Shown piece by piece: positions 9,639-36,416 of a stretch of 37,088 nucleotides of DNA. A program made the position numbers and the translations under genes. Source of the stretch: Chloroflexia bacterium (GTDB lineage Bacteria > Chloroflexota > Chloroflexia > Thermomicrobiales > CFX8); the NCBI GenBank assembly GCA_030431755.1, contig JAUIIK010000042.1, positions 1 through 37,088 on the forward strand. The letters are read 5' to 3'. Every line of letters begins with the position of its first letter. The stretch's first letter is position 1. The notes beneath the pieces were generated by a model, which saw only the letters and a program-made list of their open reading frames with translations, was not told the origin of the DNA and made no database searches.

Positions 9639-9661
9639 GCGACGATGTTTTGATATCGCCT

Positions 9662-9690
9662 ATTATCAGCCGCTGCCTATGCGCTGTCGA
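9662..9690 (-). promoter_or_regulatory. Sigma70-like promoter for khpA-rimM
   Basis: On the minus strand TCGACA (9690-9685), a 17-nt spacer and GATAAT (9667-9662): five of six matches in each box. Expected transcript start near 9655. It would let khpA-rimM be transcribed apart from rpsP. Confidence 0.6.
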
Positions 9691-9764
9691 GCGACGCGAG
9701 CAGGCAGTCATGGCGAGATCCAGCCGGTCTCCGAACGATGACGGAGGAGTGCGGGGTTGTGGCG

Positions 9765-10359: not shown

Positions 10360-11643
10360 CTAGAAGCCGGGCGGTGGCTCGGACGACGTGACCTGGATCG
10401 TGATTACGTCCGTCGCCGGTTGGGCGATGCCACTGCCGTCGGTCAGCTGCAGGCAGAGCCTGTGTGCGCCGGTGAAGATCGACAGGCTGCCGGCGAGCGC
10501 ACCGTCGGCGATCTGGATGTGGGCGTCGTCGTCCGGGATCGGTTCGCCCGGGCCGACACAGGGCTCGTCGATGATGAGCGTCAGGTGGCCCGTGCCGGGG
10601 CGCGCCTCGCCCGACGGCGCTTCGATGATGACGTTTTCCGCGCCGAACTCGAGCGGCACCGGCGTCGAGACGGTCGCGCCGTCAGCCGGCGTCACGAAAT
10701 AGACGCGCGGCGCGAGGAACGCAGCCGGGTCGGTGACATAGCGCACCTGGCCGGTCCAGGTGCTGGTGATCTGGAGGCCGCTCTCGCAGCGTGGCTCCTC
10801 CGCGATGGTCGCTGTCGCGCGACCATAGCCGAGAATACCGCTATAGGGGCCCGACTCGCCTGCCAGCACGAAGTTACCGTGGGCGTGGCGGGCGTTCAAC
10901 CCGGCGATGAAGATGCCGCGCAGATTGCCTTTTGCGCCAAGCTGGCGGGTCTCGCCATAGATGCCGGTCGGGTCGTCGCCGCCGAGCGTCTGGCGCGCCA
11001 CCCGCAACGGGCCGCTGTCGCGCACGAGGCCATTCGTGCCGATGAAGCCGCCGTCGGCGGTGGTCGGGCCGGTCAGGCAGGCGCTGCCGCTGAGGTGGAT
11101 GCCGGCGATCGGGCCGGTCAAGGTGATCATCGTGCCGCTCAGCTCGATTGCCGCGGGTGTTGCTGAGATTACCGTGTCGAGCACGATGACTTGGTCGCTC
11201 GCGCCATGCCGGCCGACGAGGATGCCGTGCACCGATTCCCGCGCTCCGGCAGGCAGCTCCAGGGCCACCGACCCCGACCAGGTCTGCTCGTCGTTGCGGA
11301 GCTCGACGGTCGCGAAGGACTGCTGGCTGCCTTCGCAGTCGAGCATGGCGTCGCAGGGGCCGTCGGCGTCGATGTCGTTCACGAGCACTGCTGCGCCGGT
11401 CACGTCGCCGCTCACCGTGGCCTGGACCACGACGCCACGCATGTGGAAGCCCTCTGCGCCGGTCCAGGCCTTGCCCGGGTCGACGATCTCATCAAGCGTG
11501 ATTGTTACGGTGATGGCCGCAATGCCGCCGTCCGCTTCACCGGTTGTCTGCGCTGCCGCGGGTAACGCCGGCGCGAGCAGGGCCAGGGCGAGCAGGAGGA
11601 GCGGGAGCTTGCGGGCTAGAAGGCTTTGAAGCGGACGCGCCAT
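10360..11643 (-). CDS. Secreted protein with C-terminal DUF4399-like domain
   Basis: 427 residues. Sec signal peptide: basic ARPLQSLLARK, hydrophobic LPLLLLALALLAP, cleavage near PAAAQ (about 31-33). Residues ~45-310 form an unrecognised beta-rich region with CDAMLDC (a possible disulfide) and glycine-rich stretches. The C-terminal ~105 residues resemble DUF4399: RVYFVTPADGATVSTPV, FGAENVIIEAPSGE, TGHLTLIIDE, DDAHIQIADG, TGAHRLCLQLTDG. The family usually has a histidine cluster at GHHHLLID; here only one His remains. ATG 11643 has GAGGAG 7 nt upstream and is preferred over 11664. A strong promoter lies upstream. Function unknown; extracytoplasmic. Confidence 0.75.
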   Translation of the reverse strand: MARPLQSLLARKLPLLLLALALLAPALPAAAQTTGEADGGIAAITVTITLDEIVDPGKAWTGAEGFHMRGVVVQATVSGDVTGAAVLVNDIDADGPCDAMLDCEGSQQSFATVELRNDEQTWSGSVALELPAGARESVHGILVGRHGASDQVIVLDTVISATPAAIELSGTMITLTGPIAGIHLSGSACLTGPTTADGGFIGTNGLVRDSGPLRVARQTLGGDDPTGIYGETRQLGAKGNLRGIFIAGLNARHAHGNFVLAGESGPYSGILGYGRATATIAEEPRCESGLQITSTWTGQVRYVTDPAAFLAPRVYFVTPADGATVSTPVPLEFGAENVIIEAPSGEARPGTGHLTLIIDEPCVGPGEPIPDDDAHIQIADGALAGSLSIFTGAHRLCLQLTDGSGIAQPATDVITIQVTSSEPPPGF

Positions 11644-24762: not shown

Positions 24763-24837
24763 GGCGAAGTAGACCGTTCCGAAGTCGTATGATGCTTTCG
24801 AATGTACGGCAATTGCAACGGGATGGGGCCAGGCGGA

Positions 24838-26577
24838 ATGACGACCATCGATCCAATCACGCTCGAGGTCATGTGGAACCGGTTGATTGCGGTCGTCAAC
24901 GAGCAGGCGACGGCGTTGATGCGGACGTCCTTCACAACGATCGTTCGCGAATCAGGAGATCTGTCGGCCGGGGTCTTCGATACCCACGGCAACATGATCG
25001 CCCAGGCGGTGACGGGCACGCCCGGCCACATCAACGCGATGGCCACCTGCATCCACTACTTCCTGGATGTCTATCCAGCCGAGACGCTCGTGCCCGGCGA
25101 CGTGCTGATCACCAACGACCCGCAGAAGACCTCCGGGCACCTGCATGATTTCACCGTCATCACACCAATCTTCCAGGGCGATCAGCTCGTCGCGTTCTTT
25201 GGCAACACCTGCCACGTCCTCGATATTGGCGGGCGCGGGCTGACGACCGATGCGCGCTCGGTCTATGAAGAAGGGCTCTTCGTCCCGATTACCAAGCTCT
25301 ACGACGCCGGCGTCGAGAATGCCGAGCTGGTGAAGCTCATCGCCGCCAACGTGCGAACGCCCGAGCCGGTGCTGGGCGACATCCACGCTCAGGTCGCCGG
25401 CAATGAAGTCGGTGGACGCCGGTTGCTGGAGTTCATGGAGGAGTTCGCACTCGAATCAATCGACCCGCTTGGCGCGGAGATCATCGAGCGCTCCGAGCGG
25501 GCCATGCGGGAGGCGATCTCCAAACTCCCGGATGGTTTCTATACGAAATTCGACTACTCCGACGGCTACGAAGAGCCGGTCCGGATGGAGGTCTCAATCG
25601 AGAAGCGCGGCGACGAGCTGTGGGTCGATTGGGCCGGTTCGAGCCCCGAGAGTAAGTACGGCATCAACGTTGTCCTCAACTACACCCATGCCTACACGAC
25701 CTACGCGCTCAAGTGCGCGCTCGCGCCGGAGGTTCCGAACAACGAGGGGTCGTTCAGACCGGTCCATGTCGCCGCGCCGGAGGGCTGCATTCTCAATGCC
25801 CAGCATCCCGCGCCGGTCGGCTCGCGCTCGATCATCGGCCACTTTCTGCCGGGCGTGATCTTCGGTGCGCTGGCGGACGCGTTGCCGGGGCAGGTGATGG
25901 CAGATGGCGCGGCCAACATTTGGATCAACCAGTTCACCGGCGAGATCGACGACTCGAACCGCGCCTACACCTCGGGTTCGGGCGCGTCGCGGACCTGGAC
26001 CTATGTCTGGTTCTCAGCCGGCGGCACCGGCGCGCGGCCGACGAAGGATGGCATCGGCGCGACAGCGTTTCCGAGCGGTATCTCGGGCGTGCCCGCCGAG
26101 GTCATCGAGCAGCTCTCGCCCATCGTCATGCACCGCCGCGAGTTCCGCCAGGACTCCGGCGGGGCCGGCAAGTTTCGCGGTGGCGTCGGCCAGACGATGG
26201 AGGTCTCGGTGCGCGGTGAACGGTCCTATACCCTCGCGCCACTCTTCGACCGTACACGCTATGCCGCCGAAGGTTATTCCGGTGGCCAGGCGGGCGCATA
26301 TGGCCGGATTACGACCTCCACCGGCGAGGAGCTGGCCTCGAAAGGCGAGCGTGAGTTTACGCCCAACATGCGGGTGACACTCGATCTACCGGGTGGTGGC
26401 GGCTTCTACGATCCCCATGAACGCGACCCGGAGAACGTTGCGGCAGATGTCGCCGACGGCCTCGTGTCGGTCGAGGCGGCGCGTGATGACTATGGCGTTG
26501 TGCTCGACCCCGCGACACTGCGGGTAGACCTCGAGGCCACCCGGCAGGCGCGGTCCGCAAGCGCAAACGAGGCGTGA
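24838..26577 (+). CDS. hyuB: Hydantoinase/oxoprolinase family protein, HyuB-type subunit
   Basis: 579 residues, normal for HyuB. Family text: IDPITLEVMWNRLIAVVNEQ, MRTSFTTIVRESGDLSAGVFD, GTPGHINAM, VLITNDPQKTSGHLHDFTVITP, TCHVLDIGGRGL, EEGLFVPITKLY, and LVRDIRA-like NVRTPEPVLGDIHAQVAG; near the end DSGGAGKFRGGVGQ and LPGGGGFYDP. Works with HyuA on cyclic amides or related substrates. ATG 24838 is chosen (AGG shortly upstream, family-like MTTIDPITLEV); an ATG at 24802 adds 12 residues. TATGAT at 24788-24793 is a possible -10. Last gene before the binding-protein array. Confidence 0.93.
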   Translation: MTTIDPITLEVMWNRLIAVVNEQATALMRTSFTTIVRESGDLSAGVFDTHGNMIAQAVTGTPGHINAMATCIHYFLDVYPAETLVPGDVLITNDPQKTSGHLHDFTVITPIFQGDQLVAFFGNTCHVLDIGGRGLTTDARSVYEEGLFVPITKLYDAGVENAELVKLIAANVRTPEPVLGDIHAQVAGNEVGGRRLLEFMEEFALESIDPLGAEIIERSERAMREAISKLPDGFYTKFDYSDGYEEPVRMEVSIEKRGDELWVDWAGSSPESKYGINVVLNYTHAYTTYALKCALAPEVPNNEGSFRPVHVAAPEGCILNAQHPAPVGSRSIIGHFLPGVIFGALADALPGQVMADGAANIWINQFTGEIDDSNRAYTSGSGASRTWTYVWFSAGGTGARPTKDGIGATAFPSGISGVPAEVIEQLSPIVMHRREFRQDSGGAGKFRGGVGQTMEVSVRGERSYTLAPLFDRTRYAAEGYSGGQAGAYGRITTSTGEELASKGEREFTPNMRVTLDLPGGGGFYDPHERDPENVAADVADGLVSVEAARDDYGVVLDPATLRVDLEATRQARSASANEA

Positions 26578-26987
26578 GCATCGACTGCCACAACCGGCTG
26601 CGGCGTGCGATATGCGCGGGGCGTCGCTGCGCGTCTGCACCCACGCAGGTAACTCGCGTATACTAGGCAACTGACAACGACAACCTAGACATCGGAGCGC
26701 GTCGAGGGGGACGGGCGCTGATTCTGTCGTTATGTGTTCGTATCCGGGAGAGGAGCATCGCCGGAGAAGGACTTTGCTGGATGCCGTCGGCTCTTGTCGT
26801 CCAGGCGTGTCGTCGTGATTCGGGGATGATCGCGGCGCGCAAGTATGTGTTGCTGCTATTGCTGTGTTACCCCATGTGATCTTCAGTTTCCTGAATCTTG
26901 GGTCCTCATGGTTGATGGTGGATGCGCTCGCGCCTCGCGATGGCGTGCAGGCGGTTGTGGAAGCTGTTTGGATACTCAGGAGATTGC
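26578..26987 (+). other. Leader region of solute-binding protein gene 1 (410 nt)
   Basis: No long gene. CTGCG (26627-26631)/CGCAG (26644-26648) forms a hairpin after hyuB, then GCGTATACT with TATACT at 26659-26664 (candidate -10; TGCACC 17 nt upstream is a weak -35). GAGAGGAG occurs at 26748-26755. A possible 17-residue leader peptide MIAARKYVLLLLLCYPM (26826-26879) with five consecutive Leu codons lies 108 nt before the gene, without a good ribosome-binding site. Confidence 0.4.
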
Positions 26988-28967
26988 ATGGAGGATGAAA
27001 CCTTGACCCAGCACCAAAGCAAGATAGACGAACTGCGCGAGCGCGCGCTCGCCGGCGGCATGAATCGCCGCGATGTGCTCAAGCGCAGTCTTGCGCTCGG
27101 CTTGAGCGCTCCGGTTATTGCCGGTCTGCTCGCTGCCTGTGGCGGCGATGACGACGACGATGATGACGATGATGACGATAGCGGCGCCGCAGCGACGAAC
27201 ACTCCGGAAAGCTCTGACGGTGGCGACGACGACGCGACCGAGCCGCCCTCTGCGCCGGGCGCGAACCAGGATGCCACGGCAACTGCGGAAGCCCAGGCGG
27301 ACGAGCCGACCGAAGAAGAGATGGCCGACGACCCCACCCCAACCGAGGAATCGTCTGAGCCGATGACCCGTGGCGGTGGCGGCAAGATCACCTTGCTCTA
27401 CTGGCAAGCTCCGACGATCCTCAACATGCACCTGGGCCAGGGCACGAAGGACTTCCACGCCGGCCAGGTCGTGCTGGAGCCGCTGGCGTACCTGGGTGTT
27501 GGCGAAGAGCCGATCCTCGTGCTGGCGGCCGAGTGGCCGTCGGTTGAAGCGGGCACGCTCGACCCTGACGGCAACTTCGTCATCTGGAAGCTCAAAGAAG
27601 GCGTCGTCTGGCACGACGGCGAACCCTTCTCTGCTGAGGATGTCGCCTTTACCTATGACTACATCTCGAACGAGGAGACGACTGCGACGACACTGGGCAC
27701 TTACGCGGCTGTGGAGTCCGTGGAAGTCGTCGATGAGTACACCGTGCAGGTGAATTTCTCGAGCCCCAACCCGGCCTGGTTCGATGTCTTTGTCGGAAGC
27801 AACGGGCCAATCATTCCGAAGCACGTTCTCGAGGATCAGGTTGGCGCGGCAGCCCGCGATGCTGAGTTCAACCTCAACCCGATCGGCACCGGCGCATGGA
27901 AGGTGCGCGAATTCCTGCCCGGCGACACCGTCCTCTACGACATCAACGAGGATTACCATATCGAAGGCATTCCGTACTTCGACGAAGTGGAGATCAAGGG
28001 CGGCGGCGACGCCACCTCGGCCGCCCGTGCCGTCATGGTGACCGGCGAAGCTGACTGGGCCTGGAACCTCCAGGTCGAGCCGGAGATCCTCGAACAGATG
28101 GAGTCCGACGGCGGCGAGGGGCGCCTGGTGGCGACGCCAGGCACGAGCGCTGAGCGGATCATGATCAACTTCGCCGACCCGAACACCGAGGTCGACGGCG
28201 CGTTCTCCGAGCCGACGACCCAGCACCCGATCTGGCAGCACAAGGAAGCCCGCGAGGCGCTGAACCTCGCGATCCAGCGCGACCTGATCGCTACTCAGCT
28301 CTACGGCGCTGCCGGTGTCGCGACCGGCGATACACTCAACGTGCCCGCGAGCTTCAAGCTCAACTGGCCGTGGGAATACAACATGGATGCCGCCGCCGAG
28401 AAGCTGGCCGAGATCGACTTCCCGGACGCCTTCGACAGCACGAACATCCTCTACTCGACGTCTGTCAACTCGGTCCGGCAGAAGAATCAGGAGATCGTAA
28501 AAGCTGATCTCGAGACGCTGGGCTTCTCCGTGGAGCTCAAGAGCGTCGATTCCGGTGTCTTCTTCTCGTCTGACGCCGGCAACCCGGACACCTACGGCCA
28601 CCACTACGCCGACATGGAGATGTACACCAACGGCCCGAGCTCGCCGTACCCGGTCGCCTGGGCGGAGCGCTATCGTTCAGACGATATCGCCCAGCAGTCG
28701 AACAACTGGTCAGGGACGAACATCACCCGTTGGAACAACCCGGACTTCGACGCGCTGCACGATCGTGCCAAGACGGCGATCGACGAACAGGAGCAGATTG
28801 ATATCTGGACTGAGATGATGAGTCTCGTATACACCGACATCGTCGAGGTGCCGATTGTCTGGCGTGGCGGTGCGGCGGCAGTCCACAACCGCATCGCCTG
28901 GGTTGAAGACGTTAGCCCGTGGACACCGACGCCGATCGATCAGCTGAAGTACTGGACACTCGCCTAG
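26988..28967 (+). CDS. Tat lipoprotein solute-binding protein 1, family 5 (peptide type)
   Basis: 659 residues. Twin-arginine signal NRRDVLKRSLALGLSAPV (RR at 27-28) with lipobox LLAAC, Cys51 as the lipidated residue; then GG and 11 consecutive Asp (27147-27179), an acidic Glu/Thr/Pro linker to about 125 ending EPMTRGGGGKIT. The SBP_bac_5 domain follows: VLEPLAYL, FVIWKLKEGVVWHDGEPFSAEDVAFTYDY (split motif WxDGxPFxAxDVxFT), GTGAWKVREFLPGDTV, IWQHKEAREALNLAIQRD. Binds a solute outside the cell for an ABC importer. ATG 26988 has AGGAG 5 nt upstream. First of four tandem paralogues; closest to copy 2 in the binding domain. Solute unknown; peptides are the family default. Confidence 0.93.
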   Translation: MEDETLTQHQSKIDELRERALAGGMNRRDVLKRSLALGLSAPVIAGLLAACGGDDDDDDDDDDDSGAAATNTPESSDGGDDDATEPPSAPGANQDATATAEAQADEPTEEEMADDPTPTEESSEPMTRGGGGKITLLYWQAPTILNMHLGQGTKDFHAGQVVLEPLAYLGVGEEPILVLAAEWPSVEAGTLDPDGNFVIWKLKEGVVWHDGEPFSAEDVAFTYDYISNEETTATTLGTYAAVESVEVVDEYTVQVNFSSPNPAWFDVFVGSNGPIIPKHVLEDQVGAAARDAEFNLNPIGTGAWKVREFLPGDTVLYDINEDYHIEGIPYFDEVEIKGGGDATSAARAVMVTGEADWAWNLQVEPEILEQMESDGGEGRLVATPGTSAERIMINFADPNTEVDGAFSEPTTQHPIWQHKEAREALNLAIQRDLIATQLYGAAGVATGDTLNVPASFKLNWPWEYNMDAAAEKLAEIDFPDAFDSTNILYSTSVNSVRQKNQEIVKADLETLGFSVELKSVDSGVFFSSDAGNPDTYGHHYADMEMYTNGPSSPYPVAWAERYRSDDIAQQSNNWSGTNITRWNNPDFDALHDRAKTAIDEQEQIDIWTEMMSLVYTDIVEVPIVWRGGAAAVHNRIAWVEDVSPWTPTPIDQLKYWTLA

Positions 28968-29002: not shown

Positions 29003-29045
29003 CAACGGCCGGGGGCATCCAGTTCCCGGCCGTTGTTCGTATACT
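29003..29045 (+). promoter_or_regulatory. Terminator of copy 1 joined to candidate promoter of copy 2
   Basis: Stem CAACGGCCGGG (29003-29013)/CCCGGCCGTTG (29025-29035), perfect. The loop holds CATCCAG (29016-29022), exactly 17 nt before TATACT (29040-29045). The same loop, spacing and TATAC appear after copies 2 and 3. Terminator is well supported; promoter function is inferred from conservation, as CATCCAG is not like TTGACA. Confidence 0.6.
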
Positions 29046-29332
29046 TCAACGTAGCCACGCCTATGCGTATATGGCTATAGAAAATATTGCCCATATGACG
29101 AAAGGGGGATGAACTCAGGCAGGGTTTTGAAGAGCAACAGGCTGCGGCTAGGTCTTCACAGCACCTCTCACGGCCGCCACCACATACGCTCTCGAAATCC
29201 CCGCACGTTGCGAATTGGTCTGCGTCTGGCGTTGACGGCCGACGTTGGCTGAGTGACACAGCGCGTTATGCGTCTCCCGGCGACGGTCGCCGGGGCAATG
29301 CGCTTGTAGTGTCCTTGAATCTAGGAGAATGA
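29046..29332 (+). other. Leader region of solute-binding protein gene 2
   Basis: Gap between copies 1 and 2 totals 365 nt. After the terminator/promoter module it contains a tight 8-bp hairpin CCCGGCGA-CGG-TCGCCGGG (29276-29294) about 40 nt before the start codon. A weak 47-codon frame from 29109 is Arg-rich and not convincing. Confidence 0.4.
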
Positions 29333-31294
29333 ATGTCTAACGGCATAACAAAGTCGATCGACGAGCTCTGGTCCGGTATTCACGCCGGAACACTCAACCG
29401 CCGGACGGTGCTCAAGCGCAGCCTTGCCCTGGGCCTTAGCGCGCCGGTCATTGCCGGCCTGCTTGCCGCCTGCGGTGACGATGATGACGATGACGATGAT
29501 GACAACGGCGACGATGCCACCACGCCCGACGACAGCGGCAGTGGCGACGACGCAACGCCGACCGAAGGCGCATCCGCACCAGGCGCGAACGCCGGCGCGA
29601 CCCAGACGGCCGAAGCGGCCGGCGGTGAAGCGACCGAAGATGAGGGCGGCTCCGACGACGAGGCGACGCCGACCGAGGATTCCGGCGAGCCGATGACCCG
29701 TGGCGGCGGCGGCAAGATCACGTTGCTCTACTGGCAAGCCCCGACGATCCTCAATCTGCACCTTGGCCAGGGTACGAAGGACTTCCACGCCGGTCAGGTC
29801 TGCCTGGAACCGCTTGCCTACCTCGATCAGAACACCCAGCCGATCCTCGTGCTGGCGGCCGAGTGGCCGTCGGTCGAAGCGGGCACGCTCGACCCTGACG
29901 GCAACTTCGTCATCTGGAAGCTCAAGGAGAACGTCGTCTGGCACGACGGCGAGCCCTTCACCGCCGAAGACGTCGCCTTCACCTACGACTACATCTCGAA
30001 CGAGGAGACGACCGCGACGACGCTGGGCACCTACGCGCCGGTTGAGAGCGTCGAGGTTGTGGACGAGTACACGGTCCAGATCAACTTCTCCAGCCCCAAC
30101 CCGGCCTGGTTTGACGCGTTCGTCGGCGACAATGGCGCGATCCTGCCCAAGCACATCCTGGAAGACCAGGTTGGCACGGCAGCCCGCGACGCCGAGTTCA
30201 ACCTCAACCCGATCGGCACCGGCCCGTGGATGGTCTCCGAGTTCCGTCCCGGTGACACGGTCCTCTACACAATCAATGAGGATTATCACATCGAGGGTCT
30301 GCCCTACTTCGACGAGGTCGAGATCAAGGGCGGTGGCGACGCCACCTCGGCCGCTCGCGCGGTCATGGTGACGGGCGAAGCCGACTGGGCCTGGAATCTC
30401 CAGGTCGAGCCGGAGATCCTCGAACAGATGGAGTCCGATGGCGGCGAAGGCGTCTTGCTCGCTATCCCCGGCACCAGCGCCGAGCGGATCATGATCAACT
30501 TCGCCGACCCGAACACCGAGGTCGACGGCGCGTTCTCCGAGCCGACGACCCAGCACCCGATCTGGCAGCACAAGGAAGCCCGCGAAGCGCTCAACCTGGC
30601 GATCCAGCGCGACGTTATCGCCACCCAGCTCTACGGTGCTGCCGGTGTCGCGACCGGTGATACGCTCAATGTCCCGGCCGACTTCAAGCTCAACTGGCCG
30701 TGGGAGTACAACATGGACGCGGCGGCTGAGAAGCTGGCCGAGATCGACTTCCCGAATGCCTTCGACAGCACGAACATTCTCTATTCGACGTCGGTCAACT
30801 CGGTCCGGCAGAAGAACCAGGAGATCGTCAAGGCTGACCTCGAGACGCTGGGCTTCTCGGTCGAGCTGAAGAGCGTCGATTCCGGTGTCTTCTTCTCGTC
30901 TGATGCCGGCAACCCGGACACCTACGGGCATCACTACGCCGACATGGAGATGTACACCAACGGGCCGACCAGCCCGTATCCGGTCTCCTGGGCCGAGCGC
31001 TATCGTTCGGACGACATCGCCCAGCAGTCGAACAACTGGTCAGGGACGAACATCACCCGTTGGAACAACCCGGACTTCGACGCGCTGCACGATCGTGCCA
31101 AGACGGCGATCGACGAGCAGGATCAGGTCGACATCTGGACCGAGATGATGACGCTTGTCTATGAGGACATCGTCGAGGTGCCGATTGTCTGGCGTGGCGG
31201 CGCGGCGGCGGTTCACAACCGCATCGCCTGGACTTCGGTTGGCCCGTGGCAGCCGAGCCCGATCGACGACTTGAAGTACTGGACGCTGGCCTAA
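29333..31294 (+). CDS. Tat lipoprotein solute-binding protein 2, family 5 (peptide type)
   Basis: 653 residues. Tat motif NRRTVLKRSL (RR 23-24), lipobox LLAAC with Cys47, then G and nine Asp (29477-29503), and a linker differing from copies 1 and 3 (PGANAGATQTAEAAGGEATE). The binding domain is nearly identical to copy 1 over long runs, for example GGDATSAARAVMVTGEADW and YGHHYADMEMYTNGP, and shares PKHILEDQ and NWSGTNITRWNNPDFD with it rather than with copies 3/4. ATG 29333 has AGGAG 5-6 nt upstream; the ATG four bases earlier meets a stop at once. It is probably a second-specificity or differently regulated version of copy 1. Confidence 0.93.
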   Translation: MSNGITKSIDELWSGIHAGTLNRRTVLKRSLALGLSAPVIAGLLAACGDDDDDDDDDNGDDATTPDDSGSGDDATPTEGASAPGANAGATQTAEAAGGEATEDEGGSDDEATPTEDSGEPMTRGGGGKITLLYWQAPTILNLHLGQGTKDFHAGQVCLEPLAYLDQNTQPILVLAAEWPSVEAGTLDPDGNFVIWKLKENVVWHDGEPFTAEDVAFTYDYISNEETTATTLGTYAPVESVEVVDEYTVQINFSSPNPAWFDAFVGDNGAILPKHILEDQVGTAARDAEFNLNPIGTGPWMVSEFRPGDTVLYTINEDYHIEGLPYFDEVEIKGGGDATSAARAVMVTGEADWAWNLQVEPEILEQMESDGGEGVLLAIPGTSAERIMINFADPNTEVDGAFSEPTTQHPIWQHKEAREALNLAIQRDVIATQLYGAAGVATGDTLNVPADFKLNWPWEYNMDAAAEKLAEIDFPNAFDSTNILYSTSVNSVRQKNQEIVKADLETLGFSVELKSVDSGVFFSSDAGNPDTYGHHYADMEMYTNGPTSPYPVSWAERYRSDDIAQQSNNWSGTNITRWNNPDFDALHDRAKTAIDEQDQVDIWTEMMTLVYEDIVEVPIVWRGGAAAVHNRIAWTSVGPWQPSPIDDLKYWTLA

Positions 31295-31342
31295 CCCCAA
31301 CGCTCCTTTGGGGTAGCGAGCACACGAGCATGTGACACGCGC

Positions 31343-31383
31343 GAGGCCGCGGGCATCCAGCCTGCGGCCTCCGTGCGTATACC
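31343..31383 (+). promoter_or_regulatory. Terminator of copy 2 joined to candidate promoter of copy 3
   Basis: Stem GAGGCCGCGGG (31343-31353)/CCTGCGGCCTC (31361-31371) with one G-U pair. Loop is CATCCAG (31354-31360), again exactly 17 nt before TATACC (31378-31383). Confidence 0.6.
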
Positions 31384-31677
31384 TAACCAGCGGCTCTCAT
31401 AGAGGTGTGAGAGTTGCCCGTGCCTTGAACAACCGAGAGGAGGCTGTGAGGAGAGATCCGATCGTGCATCGGTTCTCCGAGGGGGATTCGCTGATTTGAC
31501 AGTTGGCGCGGCCAGCATGGCCTGACGCCGGCGCACAGGTGCCGACACGCTCCTGCATTGTGACCGGTGATAGCCCATGTGGCGTGATGGGTGCGATACG
31601 TCGCGCGCCGTAGCGAGACCGGAAGCTTGTCACCTCCGGATCGCTGTCATCGTTTGATGCAAACAAGGAGCATGCTC
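31384..31677 (+). other. Leader region of solute-binding protein gene 3
   Basis: Gap between copies 2 and 3 is 383 nt. Contains GAGAGGAGG (31435-31443) and directly after it a nested hairpin GGAGA (31450-31454), CCGAT (31458-31462), ATCGG (31468-31472), TCTCC (31474-31478). No convincing gene. Confidence 0.4.
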
Positions 31678-33654
31678 GTGTCAGAACGTTCCAACCTGCA
31701 GCTCGATGAGCTATGGGCCCAGATTTCTCGTGGCGGAGTTAGCCGCCGCGATGTGCTCAAGCGCAGCCTCGCGCTTGGCTTGAGCGCCCCGGTCATCGCC
31801 GGTCTGCTCGCCGCCTGTGGCGGCGATGATGATGACGACGATGATGACGATGACGATGATGGCGGCGACGCCGCCACGAACACCCCGGAAAGCTCCGGCG
31901 GTGGCGAAGATGATGCGACCGCAACTGAGCCGCCCTCTGCGCCAGGCGCAAACGCCGATCAGACGGCAACGGCGGAGGCCCAGGCGGACGAGCCCACCGA
32001 AGAAGAGATGACCGACGAGCCCACGGCGACCGAAGAGTCATCCGAGCCGATGACGCGTGGTGGCGGCGGCAAGATCACGTTGCTCTACTGGCAAGCCCCG
32101 ACGATCCTCAACATGCACCTGGGCCAGGGCACGAAGGACTTCCACGCCGGCCAGGTCATCCTCGAACCGCTGGCTTACTTTGGTCCGGGCGAAGAACCGC
32201 AGCTCGTACTCGCGGCCGAATGGCCCTCGGTCGAGGCGGGCACCCTTGACCCGGACGGCAACTTCGTCATCTGGAAGCTCAAAGAAGGCGTCGTCTGGCA
32301 CGACGGTGAGCCATGCACCGCCGAAGATGTCCGCCTAACCTGGGAATATGCGACTAACACAGATACGACCGCAACGACTGTCGCCTCATTTGCGCCGGTG
32401 GAGAGTGTCGAGGTCATCGACGACCTCACCGTGCAGGTGAACTTCATCGAGCCGAATCCGGCCTGGTTCGACGTCTTCGTTGGCGGTAACGGCTGCATCA
32501 TCCCGTCGCATATTATGTCCGACTTCGTCGGCACCGCCGCGCGCGATGCGCCGTTCAACCTCGCGCCGGTCGGCACCGGCCCCTGGAAGCTGAACACCTT
32601 CAACCCCGGTGATACGGTCCTCTACGACATCAACGAGGACTATCACATGGAAGGTTTGCCCTTCTTCGACGAGGTTGAGGTGAAGGGTGGCGGCGACGCC
32701 ACGTCGGCCGCGCGCGCGGTCATGGTGACAGGCGAGGCCGACTGGGCCTGGAATCTCCAGGTTGAGCCCGAGATTCTTGATCAGATGGAGTCAGATGGCG
32801 GCCAAGGTGTTCAGGTGGCGACGCCGGGCACCAGCGCCGAGCGCATCTACATCAACTTCGCCGACCCGAACGTCGAAGTCGATGGCGCGTTCGCCGAGCC
32901 GACCACCACGCACCCCATCTGGCAGCATAAGCAGGCGCGCGAGGCGCTCAACCTGGCCATTCAGCGCGATCTGATTGCCACCCAGCTCTATGGCGCTGCC
33001 GGTGTTGCGACCGGCGACAACATGAATGTCCCGGCTCGGTTCAAGCTCAACTGGCCATGGGAATACAACATGGACGCGGCCGCCGAGAAGCTGGCTGAGA
33101 TCGACTTCCCGGATGCTTTCGACAACACCAGCATCCTGTACCAGACGTCGGTCAACTCGGTCCGGCAGAAGAACCAGGAGATCGTCAAGGCTGACCTGGA
33201 GACGCTGGGCTTCACCGTTGAGTTGAAGAGCATCGACTCGGGTGTCTTCTTCTCGTCGGACGCGGGCAACCCGGACACGTTGGCGCACTTCTATGCCGAC
33301 ATCCAGATGTACACCAATGGCCCTGGCTCGCCATATCCAATCGCCTGGGCGGCACGGTATCGTCACGACAACATCGCCGAGCAGGCGAACAACTGGGCGT
33401 TGACGAACAGCATGCGCTACGTCAACGAGGATTATGCCCCGTTGCACGACCGGGCCAAGACGGCGATTGATGAGGACGAGCAGCTGGAGATCTGGACCGA
33501 GATGTTGAGCCTCGCCTACGAGGACATCGTCGAGGTGCCGATCGTCTGGCGTGGTGGCGCGGCGGCGGTCCACAACCGCATCGGCTGGGTTGAAACCGTT
33601 AGCCCGTGGCAGCCGACGCCGATCGATCAGCTCAAGTTCTGGACCCTAGCCTAA
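31678..33654 (+). CDS. Tat lipoprotein solute-binding protein 3, family 5 (peptide type)
   Basis: 658 residues from GTG 31678; AAGGAG sits 7 nt upstream, whereas the ATG at 31672 is too close to it. Tat motif SRRDVLKRSL (RR 23-24), lipobox LLAAC (Cys47), GG and 12 Asp (31825-31860). The linker (PPSAPGANADQTATAEAQAD, EPTEEEM) matches copy 1, but the binding domain matches copy 4: PSHIMSDFVGTAARDAPFNLAP, LAHFYADIQMYTNGP, NNWALTNSMRY. The swap suggests recombination between copies. It belongs to the second ligand-pocket class. Ends with its own terminator. Confidence 0.93.
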   Translation: MSERSNLQLDELWAQISRGGVSRRDVLKRSLALGLSAPVIAGLLAACGGDDDDDDDDDDDDGGDAATNTPESSGGGEDDATATEPPSAPGANADQTATAEAQADEPTEEEMTDEPTATEESSEPMTRGGGGKITLLYWQAPTILNMHLGQGTKDFHAGQVILEPLAYFGPGEEPQLVLAAEWPSVEAGTLDPDGNFVIWKLKEGVVWHDGEPCTAEDVRLTWEYATNTDTTATTVASFAPVESVEVIDDLTVQVNFIEPNPAWFDVFVGGNGCIIPSHIMSDFVGTAARDAPFNLAPVGTGPWKLNTFNPGDTVLYDINEDYHMEGLPFFDEVEVKGGGDATSAARAVMVTGEADWAWNLQVEPEILDQMESDGGQGVQVATPGTSAERIYINFADPNVEVDGAFAEPTTTHPIWQHKQAREALNLAIQRDLIATQLYGAAGVATGDNMNVPARFKLNWPWEYNMDAAAEKLAEIDFPDAFDNTSILYQTSVNSVRQKNQEIVKADLETLGFTVELKSIDSGVFFSSDAGNPDTLAHFYADIQMYTNGPGSPYPIAWAARYRHDNIAEQANNWALTNSMRYVNEDYAPLHDRAKTAIDEDEQLEIWTEMLSLAYEDIVEVPIVWRGGAAAVHNRIGWVETVSPWQPTPIDQLKFWTLA

Positions 33655-33685
33655 GCCATAGGCTAACTAGCCAACGGGCAAAGAG

Positions 33686-33726
33686 ACGGTCGCGGACATC
33701 CAGTCCGCGGCCGTTTTTCGTATACC
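33686..33726 (+). promoter_or_regulatory. Terminator of copy 3 joined to candidate promoter of copy 4
   Basis: Stem ACGGTCGCGGA (33686-33696)/TCCGCGGCCGT (33704-33714) with one G-U pair, followed by TTTTCG: a good intrinsic terminator. Loop CATCCAG (33697-33703) is exactly 17 nt before TATACC (33721-33726). Confidence 0.65.
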
Positions 33727-34014
33727 GAGCATGAAGTCCACACATGGTTGTGGGAGGCACATCCTGTACGGGGGAGAGGAGGGTGTGCGGACCCGGCAGC
33801 GATGAGGCCGTCGCATGTGAACAAGCCACCTCGACGACCTCTGGCATGAGTTGATTGTCGCTCTCGTCCCGCTCGGGGCGTGGGCGAACTTCTGTGTTGT
33901 TTCGTCGCTGTTGGAGCCGCACGGCTCTGGAGCGTCGAACGGTTCTTCAGTTTCGGCCCAGACGCTTTGGTGCTGGGCACGATTCGGATTTCTGTTGAAT
34001 CAAGGAGCATGCTC
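33727..34014 (+). other. Leader region of solute-binding protein gene 4
   Basis: Gap between copies 3 and 4 is 360 nt. GAGAGGAGG at 33774-33782, at about the same distance from TATACC as in the copy 3 leader. The last 18 nt before the coding sequence, AAGGAGCATGCTCGTGTC, are identical to copy 3. No gene seen. Confidence 0.4.
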
Positions 34015-35991
34015 GTGTCCGAACGTTCCACCATTCAGCTCGATGAGCTTTGGGAACAGATATCGCGTGGCGGGCTTAGCCGCCGCGATGTGCTACGCCG
34101 CGCGCTGGCGCTGGGTCTCTCCGCGCCGGTAATTGCCGGTCTGCTGGCCGCCTGTGGCGGTGATGACGACGACGATGATGACGATGACGACAGCGGCGGC
34201 GATGACGCTACAGCCACGTCGGATGACTCCGGGGCCGGCGGGGACGATCCCACCGCGACCGAAGCACCCGCCGCGCCAGGGGCAAACGCAGACGCGACGG
34301 CAACCGCCGACGCGCGCGCCAGTGAACCAACCGCTACCGAGGGCGACGAAGATGAGCCCACGGCTACCGAAGGCTCCAGCGAGCCGATGACCCGTGGCGG
34401 CGGCGGCAAGGTGACGCTGCTCTACTGGCAGGCGCCGACGATCCTCAATATGCACCTGGGACAGGGCACCAAGGACTTCCACGCCGGTGGCGTGATTCTG
34501 GAGCCGCTTGCATACCTCGGTGTCAATGAGGAGCCGCAGCTATTGCTCGCGGCCGAATGGCCCTCGGTCGAAGCCGGCACGCTCGACCCGGACGGCCTCT
34601 TTGTTGTGTGGAAGCTGAAGGAAGGCGTTGTCTGGCACGACGGCGAGCCCTTCACCGCCGAGGATGTGCGCCTGACCTGGGAGTACGTCACAAATCCCGA
34701 TACGACGGCGACGACCCTCGCGACATTCGAGGCCGTCGAGAGCGTCGAGGTCATCGACGACCTCACCGTGCAGGTGAATTTCACCGAGCCGAACCCCGCC
34801 TGGTTCGATGTCTTCGTCGGGAGCAACGGCTATATCATCCCGTCGCACATCATGTCCGAGTTCGTTGGCGAGGCGGCCCGAGACGCACCCTTCAACCTCG
34901 CGCCAATCGGCACCGGTCCGTTCAAGCTCAACACCTTCAACCCCGGTGACACGGTGTTGTATGACATCAATGAGGACTATCACATCGAAGGCGTGCCATT
35001 CTTCGATGAAGTCGAGATCAAGGGCGGTGGCGACGCGACGTCGGCGGCTCGCGCGGTCATGGTGACGGGCGAGGCCGACTGGGCCTGGAACCTCCAGGTC
35101 GAGCCCGAGATTCTTGATCAGATGGAGGCGGAAGGCGGCCAGGGTGTCCAGGTGGCGACGCCAGGCACCAGCGCCGAGCGCATCTTCATCAACTTCGCCG
35201 ACCCGAACGTCGAAGTCGACGGCGCGTTCTCCGAGCCGACCACGACGCACCCCATCTGGCAGCATAAGCAGGCGCGTGAGGCGCTCAACCTGGCCATTCA
35301 GCGCGACGTCATCGCGACGCAGCTGTACGGCGCGGCCGGCGTGCCGACCGGCGACAACATGAACGTCCCGGCGCGCTTCAAGCTCAACTGGCCATGGGAA
35401 TACAACATGGACGCGGCCGCCGAGAAGCTAGCCGAGATCGACTTTCCCGCGGCCTTTGACAACACGACGATTCTCTATCAGACATCGGTCAACTCGGTAC
35501 GGCAGAAGAACCAGGAGATCGTCAAGCAGGACCTCGAGACGCTCGGCTTCACCGTCGAGCTCAAGAGCGTCGACTCCGGGGTGTACTTCTCGTCCGACGC
35601 CGGCAATCCGGACACGTTGGCGCACTTCTACGCCGACATTCAGATGTATACCAACGGCCCGAGTTCGCCGTACCCGATCGCCTGGGCGGCGCGTTTCCGC
35701 ACCGACCAGATCGCCGAACAAGCGAACAACTGGGCGCTGACGAACAGTATGCGCTACAACAACCCGGACTATGACCCGCTGCATGATCGGGCCAAGACGT
35801 CGATCGACGAAGACGAGCAGCTGGAGATCTGGACCGAGATGCTGGGCCTCGTTTACGAGGACATCGTCGAGGTGCCGATTGTCTGGCGCGGCGGCGCGGC
35901 GGCGGTTCACAACCGCATCGCCTGGGTCGAGGATGTCAGCCCCTGGCAGCCGACGCCAATCGATCAGCTGATGTACTGGACGTTGAAGTAG
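34015..35991 (+). CDS. Tat lipoprotein solute-binding protein 4, family 5 (peptide type)
   Basis: 658 residues from GTG 34015 with AAGGAG 7 nt upstream, the same arrangement as copy 3. Tat motif SRRDVLRRAL (RR 23-24), lipobox LLAAC (Cys47), GG and 10 Asp (34162-34191). Linker is its own (EAPAAPGANADATATADARA). Binding domain as copy 3: SHIMSEFVGEAARDAPFNLAP, DTLAHFYADIQMYTNGP, NNWALTNSMRYNNPDYD. Differences from copy 3 are mostly conservative. Followed by a 12-bp hairpin and then, 425 nt later, the permease gene, so it is the copy next to the transporter core. Confidence 0.93.
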   Translation: MSERSTIQLDELWEQISRGGLSRRDVLRRALALGLSAPVIAGLLAACGGDDDDDDDDDDSGGDDATATSDDSGAGGDDPTATEAPAAPGANADATATADARASEPTATEGDEDEPTATEGSSEPMTRGGGGKVTLLYWQAPTILNMHLGQGTKDFHAGGVILEPLAYLGVNEEPQLLLAAEWPSVEAGTLDPDGLFVVWKLKEGVVWHDGEPFTAEDVRLTWEYVTNPDTTATTLATFEAVESVEVIDDLTVQVNFTEPNPAWFDVFVGSNGYIIPSHIMSEFVGEAARDAPFNLAPIGTGPFKLNTFNPGDTVLYDINEDYHIEGVPFFDEVEIKGGGDATSAARAVMVTGEADWAWNLQVEPEILDQMEAEGGQGVQVATPGTSAERIFINFADPNVEVDGAFSEPTTTHPIWQHKQAREALNLAIQRDVIATQLYGAAGVPTGDNMNVPARFKLNWPWEYNMDAAAEKLAEIDFPAAFDNTTILYQTSVNSVRQKNQEIVKQDLETLGFTVELKSVDSGVYFSSDAGNPDTLAHFYADIQMYTNGPSSPYPIAWAARFRTDQIAEQANNWALTNSMRYNNPDYDPLHDRAKTSIDEDEQLEIWTEMLGLVYEDIVEVPIVWRGGAAAVHNRIAWVEDVSPWQPTPIDQLMYWTLK

Positions 35992-36023: not shown

Positions 36024-36052
36024 CTGGCCGCGGGCAGGCTGCCCGCGGCCAG
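36024..36052 (+). terminator. Terminator of solute-binding protein gene 4
   Basis: Perfect 12-bp stem CTGGCCGCGGGC (36024-36035)/GCCCGCGGCCAG (36041-36052), loop AGGCT. Unlike the three earlier ones it lacks the CATCCAG loop and the TATAC element. Confidence 0.75.
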
Positions 36053-36416
36053 CTTGCGTGTCGCCGGGCAACGCGTCGGAATGGCAGCGGCCGCCGTGTG
36101 TCCGATTCACTGCATCATAAGGAATCCGGATCAGCGATTCATACCGTATATTGAACTGACCCCTGGGTTTCTGTTCTGAGGGCTCATTGTAGGCGCAGCT
36201 AAACGTGATGTCGTGCTGTGGGCGAAACATCTGCGAATGTTGGGAAACCTACTAGGACGGCAATGATGGGCGTGCTATAGTCTGCGATGAACCCGTTATT
36301 GCAGGGGCAAATGATCCATACCACCGCCCGCGAGGGGGACTCACGGTCACGGGAAGCGGTGGAATCGGCATATTCCGATGCTGGTGTGCGCACCGGCGAG
36401 TGCGGAAGCAGGTGAG
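36053..36416 (+). promoter_or_regulatory. Upstream region of the permease gene
   Basis: 364 nt without a gene. TATAGT at 36276-36281 is a good -10; TAGGAC 17 nt before it is a weak -35. ATCGG-CATATT-CCGAT (36364-36379) is a symmetric site 38 nt before the start codon and could be an operator or leader hairpin. Confidence 0.4.

Follow-up and report, generated by a model that had tools for sequence, protein, structure and literature searches.

A hairpin and box repeated between tandem binding-protein genes of a Chloroflexia bacterium: a candidate merged terminator and promoter

Locus

The window, the whole stretch of 37,088 nucleotides that was analysed, is contig C238 of the 5.1-Mb draft genome of a Chloroflexia bacterium. 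It carries four tandem genes for SBP_bac_5 peptide-binding proteins, flanked by a hydantoinase-B-type gene (24802-26577) on one side and an ABC permease gene on the other.

26988..28967, + strand: SBP_bac_5 copy 1 (PF00496, E=5.5e-60; ATG at 26988, SD AGGAG)
29333..31294, + strand: SBP_bac_5 copy 2 (PF00496, E=7.4e-62)
31672..33654, + strand: SBP_bac_5 copy 3 (PF00496, E=4.6e-57)
34009..35991, + strand: SBP_bac_5 copy 4 (PF00496, E=1.2e-60)

The spacers between copies 1-4 measure 365, 377 and 354 bases. The four proteins are 77-88% identical, and fourfold sites are 54-66% identical against 37-39% expected, so saturation has not yet been reached. In each of the four binding proteins a long poly-aspartate run stands right behind the lipoprotein cysteine that follows a twin-arginine signal; the run varies in length by copy (27140-27200, 29480-29520, 31820-31870 and 34160-34210).

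Genome statistics on enrichment and hairpin counts were obtained from 0.96 Mb, or 19% of the genome, with genes called by simple ORF scoring.

Hairpins downstream of the stop codons

Each copy is followed, 27-48 nt past its stop codon, by a hairpin whose fold energy lies 3-5 s.d. below that of shuffled sequences. Where the loop reads CATCCAG, the predicted fold confines it to the five bases ATCCA, closed by a C-G pair.

29003..29035, + strand: after copy 1, terminator-like; 14-bp stem, CATCCAG as loop (29016-29022), GUUGUUCG as tail; z -5.5
31343..31371, + strand: after copy 2, terminator-like; 12-bp stem, CATCCAG as loop (31354-31360), U-tract almost absent; z -5.4
33682..33718, + strand: after copy 3, terminator hairpin; 16-bp stem, CATCCAG as loop (33697-33703), U-tract good; z -5.1
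36024..36052, + strand: after copy 4; 13-bp stem, no CATCCAG in the loop, then CGTGTCGC (36057-36064), no box; z -3.1

A first-pass annotation of this DNA had described stems of 11 bp that differ in sequence and stay paired. The stems are in fact longer (12-16 bp), and the rest of the description is borne out: pairing is kept in all 48 cells of an alignment of 12 pairs across the four hairpins, and 4 of the 12 pairs are changed on both sides (6 cells), which was matched by 1 of 500 shuffles. Sliding the pairing partners out of register abolishes the covariation pattern in this alignment. Copy 3 has a good U-tract (GUUUUUCG) and copy 1 a moderate one (GUUGUUCG); those of copies 2 and 4 are poor.

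In the genome sample, hairpins of 9 bp or more occur after 11.7% of stops vs 3.2% of coding segments (3.7x), and the tails of post-stop hairpins have a mild T excess. Homologues of the binding-protein gene are present in 52 of the 61 genomes searched. Where the 3' flank of a homologue was read, a GC-rich hairpin nearly always lies within tens of nucleotides of the stop, its stem and loop unrelated to the window's. Because the relatives' homologues nearly all have such a structure and post-stop hairpins are enriched in this genome, the four hairpins are taken to be ordinary 3'-end structures, most likely intrinsic terminators that are partly U-poor. An Rfam scan of the window at the gathering score gave no matches.

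The strong GC hairpin at this distance past the stop, the covarying stem and, for copies 1 and 3, a modestly T-rich tail are all features of intrinsic terminators in GC-rich bacteria. Unlike in such terminators, the loop ATCCA after copies 1-3 is invariant and the box stands at a fixed distance past the stem. Other sampled post-stop hairpins, in this genome and in relatives, have neither.

Spacing and rarity of the loop and box

The box, CGTATAC(T/C), occurs upstream of all four genes.

26657..26664, + strand: box CGTATACT before copy 1; TATACT to ATG 329 nt; no strong terminator hairpin
29038..29045, + strand: box CGTATACT before copy 2; -10-type; TATACT to ATG 293 nt
31376..31383, + strand: box CGTATACC before copy 3; weaker -10; 294 nt to ATG
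33719..33726, + strand: box CGTATACC before copy 4; weaker -10; 288 nt to ATG

CATCCAG at 29016-29022, 31354-31360 and 33697-33703 is paired with TATAC starting at 29040, 31378 and 33721, and the distance from loop to TATAC(T/C) is exactly 17 nt after copies 1, 2 and 3, as first annotated. A search for CATCCAG-N15-CGTATACY with up to 2 mismatches finds these 3 window matches against 0.02 expected in shuffles, and the exact pattern has no match in the 5.1-Mb genome outside the window's three. CATCCAG forms the loop of 3 of 87 post-stop hairpins in the sampled 19% of the genome, all three the window's, and TATAC is found in the tail of none of the remaining 84 with a tail. A common CATCCAG terminator loop genome-wide, which would have spoken against the first-pass interpretation, is thus not what these hairpins reveal.

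The hairpin after copy 4 has neither the loop nor the box, also as annotated. It is recognisably akin to that of copy 2 (GGCCGCGGGCA..C.GCC.GCGGCC, then TGCGTGTCGC at the box position) and belongs with the other three, the loop and box having been lost or never present. The loop-box arrangement is real and unusual for this genome.

One explanation needs no new start sites: the array could be a single long operon read from a promoter at 26659, with leaky terminators reducing expression stepwise and the boxes forming part of the terminator tail. Hairpin ends that lack U are described in the GC-rich Streptomyces clavuligerus (PMC8269248), and the poor U-tracts of copies 2 and 4 agree with leakiness. 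We consider this improbable, since TATAC is absent from the 84 other tails and the box before copy 1 stands without a hairpin.

The box as a -10 element

TATACT is 15.9x denser in intergenic than in intragenic sequence (about 14-16x), CGTATACT is 20x denser (0.96 Mb), and CGTATACY in tandem spacers of the same sample is found 19 times in sense and never in antisense orientation, window sites counted. Many genomic TATACT sites lie 40-60 nt upstream of predicted starts. TATACT, or CGTATACT, appears to be a -10-type element of this genome, oriented toward the downstream gene. Housekeeping promoters of GC-rich bacteria conserve a TANNNT -10 and, to a lesser degree, the -35 (PMC8780764). TATACT at 26659 and 29040 fits TAnnnT. 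In two of the four boxes (31378 and 33721) the hexamer is TATACC, whose intergenic enrichment is weak (2.2-2.5x) and which, unlike a housekeeping-sigma -10, ends in C.

The box is the sole TAnnnT in spacer 1, before copy 1, and the sole strongly enriched one in spacer 2, before copy 2; past the hairpins of spacers 3 and 4 no TAnnnT occurs, and spacer 3 has none anywhere else. In every spacer the box is thus the best candidate for a -10. Its distance to the ATG is near constant for copies 2-4 (293, 294 and 288 nt), which implies leaders of about 280 nt.

Upstream of 89 intergenic -10-like boxes, neither position counts nor Gibbs sampling found a motif clearly above shuffles. The lack of a detectable fixed -35 in this genome is consistent with the weak -35 conservation of other GC-rich bacteria (PMC8780764), and a weak or absent -35 is usual for its TATACT boxes.

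Two other promoter regions were noted. The permease gene has a likely -10, TATAGT, at 36276-36281, far from the copy 4 hairpin, unlike the binding-protein genes. On contig L026, near-identical CGTATACT promoter regions lie about 700 nt apart (9650-9700 and 10365-10410) with the common pattern GGCGAG.CTG.CTA..CTCG.ACGCGCCGTATACTCAG, likely a second duplicated promoter.

The CATCCA loop

The first-pass annotation had proposed a terminator with an embedded promoter, the loop serving as the -35 side. The first half of this fared well: the hairpins are terminator-like, the box is of -10 type and the spacers hold no better -10. The loop as a general -35 found no support. ATCCAG and CATCCA, 17 and 18 nt upstream of the box, match TTGACA at 1-2 of 6 positions, and a hairpin loop stands where a housekeeping-sigma promoter would have its -35. 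CATCCA is not enriched 13-23 nt upstream of the 89 intergenic -10-like boxes, nor is it commoner between genes than within them (0.8x). A role for CATCCA as a housekeeping-sigma -35 is not supported by these counts.

A relaxed search found CATCCA-N16-CGTTTAC upstream of C123-B, a fifth paralogue and the second gene of another tandem pair of the same subfamily, on contig C123, whose protein is 53% identical. The preceding gene's terminator is separate there, about 110 nt upstream, and the pair of motifs is not inside it. Scored post hoc against a consensus of copies 2-4, C123-B reaches 12/13 with the same gap, a score found in 0 of 689 control upstream regions. On the same post hoc scale the region upstream of copy 1 reaches 12/13 at a gap of 13, 3 nt shorter (1 of 689 controls), through one further feature:

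26638..26643, + strand: CACCCA, corresponding to the upstream half, ahead of copy 1; 13 nt from CGTATAC; weak flanking repeats

Upstream of the paralogues C123-A, C172 and C45 the two-part element was not significant against the 689 controls. At C123-B, CATCCA sits between the arms of a 5-bp inverted repeat, such as surrounds about 1% of CAYCCA sites, and the box reads TTTACT, in which -10 position 2 is not A.

We keep open the reading of CATCCA as the upstream half of a paralogue-specific element, CAYCCA, 13-16 nt, CGTWTAC. As the pair recurs without a terminator at C123-B and copy 1, this upstream element would have merged with the preceding terminator in the array. An activator or minor sigma factor probably makes contact at CATCCA, the protein that reads it being presumed. 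A stronger version, to which we give little credence, is that CATCCA must be displayed in the apical loop of an inverted repeat upstream of CGTWTAC, so that a hairpin formed by the RNA or the DNA links termination of one paralogue's transcript to initiation of the next. The inverted repeat around CATCCA at C123-B, which bears on this version, is not a terminator.

Alternatively, CAYCCA and CGTWTAC could be the halves of a bipartite regulator site, or operator, controlling the paralogue group, with promoters elsewhere or weak. The pair is confined to one paralogue group, two of the window's boxes are poor -10s and C123-B has TTTACT, all of which an operator would accommodate. The box, however, matches the genome's extended -10 CGTATACT, spacers ig23 and ig34 have no alternative -10, and the gap differs by 3 nt, about 1/3 of a helix turn. 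We judge an operator unlikely, if less so than the leaky operon.

Conservation between spacers and in relatives

From spacer to spacer, the segment of hairpin plus box gives significant alignments (0 of 300 shuffles), and the leaders adjoining the box align weakly or not at all. The leaders gave no conserved RNA fold (z-scores 0 to -2.0, no conserved alignment) and no conserved leader peptide, the candidate short ORFs being mutually unrelated. An SD-like motif, GAGAGGAG(G), or GAAAGGGGGA in spacer 2, lies at 26748-26755, 29100-29109, 31435-31443 and 33774-33782, which is 233-240 nt before each start codon and 50-90 nt past the box. No conserved peptide follows it; a leader ORF or a regulatory site is possible.

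CATCCAG-TATAC has scattered matches in 101 relatives, and none of the 6 checked in context has CATCCAG as a hairpin loop. The G002 match examined in context falls within a coding sequence, in a gene that we take to be adenylosuccinate-synthase-like. CATCCA was also rejected as a family-wide promoter element: of 92 upstream regions 12 contain it (z 2.4), and 5 of these 12 come from the genome's own paralogue group. No conservation of the two-part element was found in other genera or families of the order, and CATCCA is absent from the relatives' homologous terminators. A search for close relatives returned distant matches only. TTGACA and TAGAAT are enriched across the 92 upstream regions. In another family of the order, the homologous gene of L087, L088 and L085 is preceded by a typical TTGACA...TAGAAT promoter; in L085, CGTATAC is immediately upstream of TTGACA.

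These comparisons bear on whether common descent is explanation enough, the spacers being copies from tandem duplication, loop and box remnants or gene-converted, and their role limited to termination. Such a history would suit proteins that are still 77-88% identical with unsaturated fourfold sites, and an element whose carriers all belong to one paralogue group and which relatives lack. It sits less well with leaders of equal age that are nearly unalignable, with a loop unchanged while the stems change, with a box before copy 1 that has no terminator, and with a pair that survives at C123-B at 53% protein identity. We put common descent alone at perhaps one chance in a few, ahead of the operator and the leaky operon. 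Stems that drift while paired, nearly unalignable leaders and fourfold sites at 54-66% argue for constraint on loop and box beyond recent duplication; gene conversion may be another cause of their similarity.

Discussion

The explanation we favour is a terminator and promoter merged into one unit and conserved after tandem duplication. The hairpin would be the 3'-end terminator of binding-protein gene n, and CGTATAC(T/C), a few nucleotides past the stem, the -10 region of the promoter of gene n+1. If the hairpin ends one transcript and the box starts the next, about 45 bp belong to terminator and promoter alike. RNA polymerase arriving from the upstream gene would halt near the tail, and fresh initiation about 7 nt past the box would give the next transcript its leader of about 280 nt. 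In the terminator loop, CATCCA would be the upstream half of the paralogue-specific two-part element. Tandem duplication would have copied the unit; its stems would then have drifted within the limits of pairing, with loop and box retained. Termination, start sites and a CATCCA-reading protein are all predicted from the DNA, and confidence in the merged unit as a whole is evenly poised. Counting against it are the weak TATACC, TTTACT at C123-B, the U-poor copy 2, the shorter gap at copy 1, the boxes' lack of a detectable -35 motif and the failure to find anything comparable in relatives.

Intergenic units in which terminator and promoter overlap are a general concept for tandem genes, and the arrangement resembles them in that one transcript would end, and the next begin, within the same few dozen base pairs. 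Unlike such units generally, the window repeats it three times, with loop-box spacing conserved and stems freely changing. No specific match was found in the literature on embedded terminator-promoters.

The loop-box feature is local to one paralogue group in one genome, and modest in reach. If start and end mapping confirm it, the array would be a compact natural relay of terminators and promoters for the independent expression of tandem paralogues, with loop and box fixed and the stem free to change. A further implication would be that duplicated transporter genes can retain a merged punctuation unit.
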